DNA of 64,000 nucleotides from Ahrensia sp. (GTDB lineage Bacteria; Pseudomonadota; Alphaproteobacteria; Rhizobiales; Rhizobiaceae). The DNA lies in contig PAKZ01000044.1 in assembly GCA_002706335.1 (NCBI GenBank), positions 62,001 through 126,000 of the forward strand. Reading direction: 5' to 3'. Positions 7,100 to 40,788 of this stretch are shown here, in pieces. Each line of letters starts with the position of its first letter. Within the stretch, counting starts at the first letter, position 1. The notes under the pieces are model-generated. The model did no database searches. It was not told where the DNA came from and saw only the letters and a list, made by a program, of their open reading frames with translations. Made by a program: the position numbers and the translations under genes.

Positions 7100-7480
7100 T
7101 TGCGGCTCCGAGAACGGAAGGTGCAGAAGCACCGTCCCGAAACTGGAACCCGGCGAAAAATCCCAGACCGGAAAAGACCGGCCTTGATTTGCCAATGATT
7201 GGTGGGGGACCCGACCGCACGGTTGGCAAGGATGGTAGTGTCTCTCGCTATTCCGACGTGTGGACCGTCAGACGAGTGGAAGACCCGACCGTCGTTGCTT
7301 CAAGATGTCCTCGCTTGTCCGGTTGGCCGGGAAGCGACCGGAGGGGTTAGCTCCGGGTACCTTGCCTTTCCTCTCACCGAATCGAGAGGTAGGCGGACAC
7401 CCACAGGCACATGCGACTTGGGGTAAGGCGCATTTAATCCCGCAGTCGTTGCTTTTCAATAAATAATTCGGGGTTGCCGA
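7100..7480 (-). ncRNA. Structured 5' leader of the decarboxylase gene, candidate speF element
   Basis: Long non-coding gap upstream of a minus-strand ornithine decarboxylase with nested hairpins, e.g. CCGGAG/CTCCGG (7338-7343 with 7351-7356) and CCTCTC/GAGAGG (7370-7375 with 7384-7389). The alphaproteobacterial speF motif (Rfam RF00518) occupies this position. Boundaries are approximate. Confidence 0.55.
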
Positions 7481-37432: not shown

Positions 37433-37657
37433 ATGGCCGACAACCACCCTACAGGACCTGCCGAGACCGGCGCCGAGATGGATTACGCGGAACACGAGCG
37501 CACCTATGCGATGTTCCTGTCGATGAGCAAATGGCTCGTCATCGTTTGCGTTGCGCTGCTGATCTCGATGGCCTTCGGCTTCTTCGCCGGCGGCGGCCTG
37601 TTCGGCGGCATCGTCGCCTTCATCGCGCTGACGGTCCTCGCCTTTTTCCTGGCCTGA
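37433..37657 (+). CDS. aa3-type cytochrome c oxidase subunit IV
   Basis: MDYAEHERTYAMFLSMSKWLVIVCVALLISMAFGFFAGGGLFGGIVAFIALTVLAFFLA. Confidence 0.88.
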   Translation: MADNHPTGPAETGAEMDYAEHERTYAMFLSMSKWLVIVCVALLISMAFGFFAGGGLFGGIVAFIALTVLAFFLA

Positions 37658-37718: not shown

Positions 37719-37754
37719 GAAAACCGGTGCGATCGTTGATCGCGCCGGTTTCTT
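37719..37754. terminator. Bidirectional-looking terminator between convergent genes
   Basis: AAACCGGtGCGATC-gtt-GATCGCgCCGGTTT then ctttatttg, between the + gene ending at 37657 and the - gene ending at 37783. Confidence 0.75.
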
Positions 37755-37782: not shown

Positions 37783-38664
37783 CTATCCGCCGACGCGGGC
37801 GAGGCCGCTGCGCGCCGGTTCGTACTGGCCGTCCAGTTGCAGTGCGCGTTGATAGGATTTCTTCGCCTTGGCCAACTCGCCTTGCTTTTCATAGACGAGC
37901 GCCTGGTTCGCCCAGCTTTCGGCCAGGTTTTCATCGAGCCGCAGGGCGTAGTTGAAATCGTCGAAGGCGTTGTCGAGCTGGTTCAGCGCGACATAGGAGA
38001 GGCCGCGGCCGTTATAGGGCTCCGGTGCGCTGGGCTGAAGCGAGATAGCTGTCGAGAAATCATCGATGGCGAAGTCGTGCTGGCCACGGGTCTGGTAAAT
38101 GAGACCGCGGCGGAAATAGGCGCGAGGATCCGTCGTGTCGAGCTGGATCGCCTTCTGGAAATCGTTGAAGGCCTCGTTGCTGCGGCCAGCGCGACGGTAA
38201 AGTTCGCCGCGGCCGATATAGGCCGTGTCGTAGCTCGGATTGAGTTTGATCGCCTGGTTGTAGTCTTCCGCGGCGCGGCCGAGATCGCCGAGATTGCGAT
38301 GGATCAGCGCCCGGTTGGCATAGGCTTCGAAAAAGCGTGGATTGAGTTCGATCGCCTTGTCGAAATCGCGTAACGCGTCCTGATAGCGACCCGCCCGGCC
38401 AAAGGCCGAGCCACGCACATTATAGGCGCTCGGGTCGGTCGGATTGGAGCGGATGACATTGGTCAGCGATGCGATGTTTTCCTCGCTACCCTGATCGGCG
38501 TCGATGGTCGTCGCAAAACGGGTGTCGACGCTCGAGGTCTCGCAGCCAGCAAGACCCATTGCCAGAAGCGCAGCGGCGCAAGCCAAACCGGCGCGCCGCA
38601 AGGCGGGATGTCTGGCGCGGGCCGAACACTCCGTCGACCGCTTCTCGCCGCCTGTCATTTCCAT
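37783..38664 (-). CDS. TPR repeat lipoprotein (NlpI-like)
   Basis: Lipobox LLAMGLAGCETSS; repeated TPRs (SAFGRAGRYQDALRDFDKAIELNP, AYIGRGELYRRAGRSNEAFNDFQKAIQLD). Confidence 0.9.
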   Translation of the reverse strand: MEMTGGEKRSTECSARARHPALRRAGLACAAALLAMGLAGCETSSVDTRFATTIDADQGSEENIASLTNVIRSNPTDPSAYNVRGSAFGRAGRYQDALRDFDKAIELNPRFFEAYANRALIHRNLGDLGRAAEDYNQAIKLNPSYDTAYIGRGELYRRAGRSNEAFNDFQKAIQLDTTDPRAYFRRGLIYQTRGQHDFAIDDFSTAISLQPSAPEPYNGRGLSYVALNQLDNAFDDFNYALRLDENLAESWANQALVYEKQGELAKAKKSYQRALQLDGQYEPARSGLARVGG

Positions 38665-38775
38665 GGAAGTGGTTCCCTCATCCTCGCGTCGCCACAGATA
38701 CAAAAAAGGCGGCGCGCTTTTTAAAGCATCGCCACCTTTTCAGATCAAAAAGAGACGAAATCGCGACAGCGCGCC

Positions 38776-38997
38776 TTAACGGCTGCGTCCGCCCAGAAGA
38801 CCCTCGCGCTGAGCGCGCTTGCGGGCGAGCTTGCGTGTGCGGCGCACAGCCTCAGCCTTTTCGCGGGCGCGTTTCTCGGAAGGCTTTTCATAATGTCCGC
38901 GCATCTTCATTTCGCGGAAAATGCCTTCGCGCTGCATCTTTTTCTTCAGGGCGCGCAGCGCCTGGTCAACATTATTGTCGCGTACGAGAACTTGCAC
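38776..38997 (-). CDS. rpsU: 30S ribosomal protein S21
   Basis: [69 protein letters not shown] start at 38997. Confidence 0.95.
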
Positions 38998-39149
38998 GTG
39001 TATCCCAACTTTCTTCACAGGTTGATGAATTCTCCGGGATACAACCATCCCGTCCCGCGATGGTGCCACCGCAGATTCGACGGTGCCATTATCAAAATGC
39101 TCCCGATTTGTCCACTGTTTTAAGGGTTTTTGCGGCGCATTTTGAGATT

Positions 39150-39390
39150 TCGGCACTGCAGAGTTCTGTCGCTCACGAATTCGTGAACCGAATCAAAGGG
39201 CAAATCGTTTTCCCATGCGCTCGAATTCGCTGTATTACGTAAGGAGAGTTTTACCAGTGAAATCTGCCTCCCGATAAATGGCGGAGGCGACGCTGGCAGC
39301 AAACAGATTCGGAATAGGTAGCCATCTTTCTTTTTCGAAAGGCTGCCTGGAAGGCACGGGATACGCCCCATCCCCGTGCCTTCCTTTTTT
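39150..39390 (+). ncRNA. Candidate intergenic small RNA ending in a strong intrinsic terminator (5' end unknown)
   Basis: No + strand ORF of note upstream. Hairpin GCCTCC-cgataaatggc-GGAGGC (39266-39288) nested in ATCTG...CAGAT, then the terminator at 39349-39390. Confidence 0.5.
39349..39390 (+). terminator. Strong rho-independent terminator with no obvious upstream gene
   Basis: GGAAGGCACGGG-atacgccccatc-CCCGTGCCTTCC followed by TTTTTT. Confidence 0.85.
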
Positions 39391-39534
39391 GTGGCGGGAC
39401 ACCCTTGCCGAGCGCGCCATGCCGAGTCGCAAAAAGGGCAGGGTATCGGCAGGCGCGGCGATAATGCTACATTCCGGCAGCGTCCGGCGTAAGGATCGCG
39501 ACGCGCCCAGAGACGACCTACAGGGTGGATTGCG

Positions 39535-40788
39535 ATGCGGAAATATTCCGGATTTGCCGTGGCGCGCGAGGCGATGCGCGGTCACAAGGGCTGGGGCCAG
39601 CAGTGGGCTTCGCCGGAGCCGCGCAAAGAGTATGACGTCATCATCATCGGCGCGGGCGGACATGGGCTGGCGACCGCCTATTACCTCGCCAAGGAGCACG
39701 GCATTACCAATGTCGCCGTGCTTGAAAAGGGGTGGCTCGGCGGCGGCAATACCGGCCGCAACACGACGATCATCCGCTCCAACTATCTCTATGACGAATC
39801 TGCGGGTCTCTACGATCACGCCGTGAAGCTGTGGGAGAATCTGAGCCAGGATCTCAATTACAACGTCATGTATTCGGCACGCGGGGTGATGATGCTGGCG
39901 CACAACGTGCACGACGTGCAGGTGTTCAAGCGCCATATCCACGCCAACCGGTTGAACGGCGTCGACAATGAGTGGCTGACGCCCGAGCAGGCGAAGGAGT
40001 ATTGCCCGCCGCTCAACATCTCCGCCTCGGCGCGCTCCCCTGTGATGGGCGCGGCGCTGCAACGGCGCGGCGGCACGGCGCGGCACGATGCGGTCGCCTG
40101 GGGCTATGCGCGCGGCGCTTCGGACCGCGGCGTGCACATCATCCAGAATTGCGAAGTGACCGGGATCCGCCGCAGCGGCAACGGCCAGGTGACGGGCGTC
40201 GAGACCTCGCGTGGCTTCATCGGCGCCAAGAAGGTCGGCGTGGTGGCTGCCGGCAACACCTCGGTCGTCATGCAGATGGCCGATGTGCGCATGCCGCTCG
40301 AAAGCTTCCCGCTGCAGGCGCTGGTTTCCGAGCCGGTCAAGCCGTGCTTTCCCTGCGTCGTCATGTCGAACACGGTGCATGCCTACATCTCCCAGTCCGA
40401 CAAGGGCGAACTGGTGATCGGCGCGGGCACCGACCAGTATACTTCCTATTCGCAGACTGGCGGGCTGCACATTATCCAGCACACGCTGGACGCGATCTGC
40501 GAAATGTTTCCGATCTTCACGCGCATGCGGATGCTGCGATCCTGGGGCGGCATCGTCGACGTGACGCCGGATCGTTCGCCGATCATCGCGAAGACGCCGG
40601 TTTCCGGGCTCTATGTCAATTGCGGCTGGGGCACGGGCGGCTTCAAGGCTACACCTGGATCGGGCCATGTCTTCGCCCACACGATCGCCAACGACAACCC
40701 GCACCCGATCAATGCCGGTTACACGATGGAACGGTTCACGACGGGCCGTCTGATCGACGAGGCGGCCGCCGCGGCGGTGGCGCACTGA
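39535..40788 (+). CDS. soxB: Sarcosine oxidase subunit beta
   Basis: [84 protein letters not shown]. Confidence 0.97.

Follow-up and report, generated by a model that had tools for sequence, protein, structure and literature searches.

The 64,000-nt stretch of DNA analysed here (the window) contains on its + strand a 12-bp perfect stem followed by T6 at 39349-39390, which the initial annotation had assigned to a short unannotated RNA, noting that the nearest + strand coding sequence ends at 37657 behind its own terminator. Both observations were confirmed, the latter terminator lying at 37721-37751. Sequence comparison suggests that the stem likely belongs to a stand-alone gene for a small RNA of roughly 110-160 nt, restricted to the genus Oricola and lying in the divergent rpsU-soxB spacer. 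This is probably an RNA gene of an ordinary kind that is undescribed, absent from Rfam and not found in the other sampled genera.

Location and distribution of the element

The window belongs to the genus Oricola (Rhizobiaceae), and a pattern search of named genomes gave O. nitratireducens, O. indica, O. cellulosilytica and Oricola sp. HH_bin22 as the nearest sequences. In all six Oricola genomes the element is placed between the divergent rpsU, on the minus strand with a start codon near 38997 in the window, and soxB, which starts on the + strand at 39535 and is followed by more sox genes. The rpsU-soxB spacer measures 472-537 nt in Oricola, while in other genera with divergent rpsU/soxB it lacks the element and is mostly 306-363 nt long (495 and 691 nt in two). 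A minus-strand rpsU promoter, TGGACA-N17-TAATGG-like, was recognised by eye near 39089-39115 and has counterparts in other genera. Likewise, many Rhizobiaceae genera have upstream of soxB the motif GTCGCAAA and then TARTGNTA, in a comparison that left out rows G014, G015, G020, G034 and G035 for wrong orientation; in Oricola it lies 3′ of the terminator and, judging from this comparison, is probably the sox promoter together with its operator. Since the rpsU and sox promoters are both older and flank the element, the latter constitutes an insert between two older promoters, and this position favours a separate gene over a sox leader, though transcription may also read through into sox. In a near genus (g29; L106 1-2401), a gene resembling by eye a major-facilitator transporter is inserted in the rpsU-soxB spacer, with the soxB upstream motif retained.

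By BLAST, the element was found in one copy in each of the six Oricola genomes and in none of 55 genomes from elsewhere in the family and order. A covariance model (R1) trained on five of the Oricola sequences recovered the remaining one, from O. cellulosilytica, with 42.6 bits, and model scores ranged from 43 to 105 bits across the six genomes. Among 200 family genomes, R1 matched the three Oricola sampled there, and the only further matches were two weak ones from other genera (L093 and L094), which resemble ordinary terminators at other sites and were rejected. Also rejected were one-mismatch pattern matches in other genera (L007-L011, L015-L018), which fell in unrelated sequence. The sister-genus spacers held no element, viral and plasmid sequences gave no match to it, and DNA, pattern and covariance-model searches alike did not find it in the other sampled genera.

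Structure and conservation of the element

Four blocks were kept among the Oricola species, namely a palindrome, the hexamer TAT[TG]AC, a first hairpin (hairpin 1) and the terminator hairpin. The features of the locus, all on the + strand, are as follows.

39172-39187, +: palindrome CTCACGAATTCGTGAA (genus form YTCACGNNTTYGTGAA), probable operator, from conservation
39208-39214, +: TTTTCCC tract, presumed -35 region, kept in three of five aligned species
39233-39238, +: TATTAC, presumed -10 hexamer (TAT[TG]AC in five of six species), then an ACGTAA-like sequence, from conservation
39245-39390, +: predicted small RNA of about 146 nt, with a putative 5′-end and a 3′-end taken from the terminator
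39262-39308, +: GCCTCC/GGAGGC nested within ATCTG/CAGAT, in the window only, with CCTCC paired
39317-39347, +: hairpin 1, stem GGTAGCC/GGCTGCC, with three pairs changed at both positions and still paired
39349-39384, +: terminator hairpin of 12 bp, with two pairs changed at both positions across the genus
39364-39371, +: CGCCCCAU, terminator loop core and candidate seed, invariant in six species, with CGCCCC exposed in predictions
39385-39390, +: T6 tail of the terminator, from sequence
39426-39470, +: ancestral soxB promoter motif GTCGCAAA...TARTGNTA, given as context outside the small RNA gene

In the terminator, GGAAGGCACGGG (39349-39360) pairs with CCCGTGCCTTCC (39373-39384) in 12 perfect base pairs around a 12-nt loop, and no other perfect stem of 9 bp or more with T5 after it occurs on either strand of the 64-kb window (mean 0.1 in shuffles). 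A simple terminator scanner, limited to loops of 8, overlooked it. The loop core CGCCCCAU was unchanged in all six species, even in O. cellulosilytica, where the stem is altered and the T-run is weak (TTCCCCC), and its CGCCCC was predicted to be unpaired with a probability of at least 0.97 in five species and at least 0.80 in O. cellulosilytica. As a control, the terminator at 37721-37751 gave no conserved BLAST match in any relative, though its flanking genes matched; a nearby ordinary terminator thus drifts faster, and conservation of terminators is not the rule here. Being intergenic and carrying its own intrinsic terminator, the element has what is expected of a trans-encoded small RNA gene.

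Folding of 39240-39392 gave z-scores of -4.1 for the + strand and -3.5 for the minus strand; folding alone thus leaves the strand undecided, and it is the T-run and the conserved blocks that assign it. In the six-sequence alignment, which was fitted to the structure of the model and draws most of its signal from one divergent species, 99.1% of base-pair cells were standard pairs and five pairs had changed on both sides. None of 500 shuffles reached the observed pairing values, in a test that six genomes give little statistical power and that their relatedness inflates, and sliding the partner by 1-3 columns lowered pairing to 43-54%. The same covariation test on the five closer species alone was not significant, while free prediction by RNAalifold returned the same two hairpins. 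Taken from these alignments, the covariation support appears good, not overwhelming. The loop of hairpin 1 is pyrimidine-rich and variable in sequence, and the part between TAT[TG]AC and hairpin 1 varies in both length and sequence.

Upstream of the hairpins, the TAT[TG]AC hexamer starts 51-53 nt downstream of the palindrome centre in five of six species, and its distance to the terminator varies. Neither the palindrome nor the hexamer can be recognised in O. cellulosilytica, which retains both hairpins. A promoter scanner found no consensus sigma-70 site in the region, the conserved hexamers being far from that consensus, and no Oricola genome contains a second exact copy of CTCACGAATTCGTGAA.

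The initial annotation had also described nested hairpins just upstream and proposed that their CCTCC acts as an anti-Shine-Dalgarno-like segment. Both repeats are present (GCCTCC 39266-39271 with GGAGGC 39283-39288, and ATCTG 39262-39266 with CAGAT 39304-39308, one G being common to both), but the outer pairing lies outside the minimum-energy fold and neither is conserved in relatives. The proposal for CCTCC did not hold, as this segment is paired in the window (unpaired probability at most about 0.03) and is not conserved at that place. The predicted structures make the C-rich terminator loop a better candidate seed than CCTCC.

Alternative explanations

The element could be read as the 5′ leader of the sox operon, with transcription from an upstream promoter attenuated at the terminator and read-through feeding soxB. 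It shares the strand of soxB, its terminator ends 145 nt before the soxB start codon, and the linkage to soxB is constant within the genus. However, the cross-genus sox promoter motif (39426-39470) stands downstream of the terminator, and, judged by this motif, the terminator does not lie between the only promoter of the operon and its first gene, as it would in a leader or attenuator. Moreover, other genera have sox genes and no element, no riboswitch family matched the region, and freeing the terminator 3′ arm cost 14-20 kcal/mol in the predicted fold of each of the six species, so that no competing anti-terminator fold was seen. We therefore regard a sox leader as unlikely. A bare insulating terminator, which would halt antisense or read-through transcription from the rpsU side and shield the sox promoter with no functional small RNA, would suit the position between rpsU and the sox promoter and the strand of the signal; it seems improbable, since 1.7 kb separate the element from the nearest + strand gene upstream, which has its own terminator, and insulation leaves the fixed palindrome-hexamer spacing, the covarying hairpin 1 and the invariant loop bases unexplained.

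Very little credence is given to a small messenger for a short peptide. The window does offer GTG AAA TCT GCC TCC CGA TAA at 39258 behind AAGGAG, but this is absent in the other five species. The conserved core falls in differing frames with differing starts from species to species, and a coding role was rejected because no frame or start codon is common to the species. The long + strand ORF at 38469-39242 was likewise discarded, being antisense to rpsU and a TPR gene and interrupted in most relatives by stops or gaps. A conserved structure without a conserved reading frame is what a small RNA gene is expected to display. The strand, terminator and small RNA assignments made initially were supported by the promoter-like block, hairpin 1 and the terminator, which are kept while the rest drifts, and the proposal of an independent short + strand RNA gene also agrees with the lack of a kept frame and with a downstream sox operon that has its own ancestral promoter motif.

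Proposed action of the putative small RNA and comparison with known systems

For the small RNA gene favoured here, transcription would start just after TATTAC (39233-39238), a regulator may bind the palindrome, which lies about 63 nt before that start, and transcription would stop at the terminator to yield a transcript of about 115-160 nt made up of a 5′ part that varies, the stem-loop and the terminator hairpin. This RNA may act in trans, the C-rich loop bases, chiefly the invariant CGCCCCAU, pairing with G-rich ribosome-binding sites, and Hfq at the U-tail, a role in keeping with U-tailed small RNAs in general, would probably help the pairing. The 10-nt loop complement GGATGGGGCG has 91 sites in the six Oricola genomes; no start-codon site was kept across the genus, and the largest conserved group comprised three genomes and was not at a start codon. 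As this search for conserved targets failed, the trans mode is put forward by analogy. That the gene arose or inserted at the base of Oricola, with the CGCCCCAU of its own terminator loop as the main pairing site for G-rich ribosome-binding sites, is a tentative and rather doubtful extension.

With this element, a marine member of the Rhizobiaceae that has been little studied gains a probable small RNA that is genus-restricted and undescribed. Since neighbouring genera have the same two genes side by side and lack the element, it offers a clean case in which the acquisition of a small RNA gene between fixed promoters could be dated and tested; general views of riboregulation would stay unchanged.

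In its manner the element resembles NfeR1, AbcR1/2 and IsrR, and the defining features of each of these are lacking. The alpha-r14 RNA NfeR1 of Sinorhizobium has three hairpins, each with CCUCCUCCC, and works through the exposed CCUCCUCCC (PMC10746234). The predicted Oricola RNA is similarly short, intergenic, built of hairpins and of comparable length, and in both the unpaired C-rich bases are conserved and the stems vary (PMC10746234, PMC8844928), whereas CCUCCUCCC is absent from all six predicted Oricola transcripts, which instead expose a single CGCCCCAU in the terminator loop. With AbcR1/AbcR2 (alpha-r15, RF02345), which act through the exposed C-rich motifs CUCCUCCC and UUCCCCUC (PMC8844928), it shares a similar length, a hairpin architecture and unpaired C-rich motifs, the pairing with ribosome-binding sites being putative in Oricola; however, neither CUCCUCCC nor UUCCCCUC is conserved in the element, and RF02345 did not match it. 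Staphylococcal IsrR, whose C-rich regions pair with Shine-Dalgarno regions (PMC9410917), likewise combines a promoter, hairpins, a Rho-independent terminator and exposed C-runs (PMC9410917), the Oricola promoter being putative. Unlike the Oricola element with its conserved terminator loop, IsrR has a poorly conserved terminator and its C-rich regions elsewhere, and no sequence relation between the two was shown.

We found no paper on small RNAs of Oricola. The covariance search against Rfam suggested initially placed no alpha-r family at the locus: no family exceeded the gathering cut-off in the region, riboswitch families included, and ar15 (RF02345) had no match there up to E = 5. Genome-wide, AbcR (ar15, RF02345) exceeded its cut-off in 12 of the 41 genomes searched and in none of the six Oricola genomes, where the best scores were 27.6 and 23.0 bits; AbcR may have been lost or have strongly diverged in Oricola. 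That the Rfam scan of the window was working is shown by its detection of ar45 (RF02347) elsewhere, at 7279-7424 on the minus strand with 126.3 bits, upstream of and divergent from an ORF that by eye resembles a LysR-type regulator.
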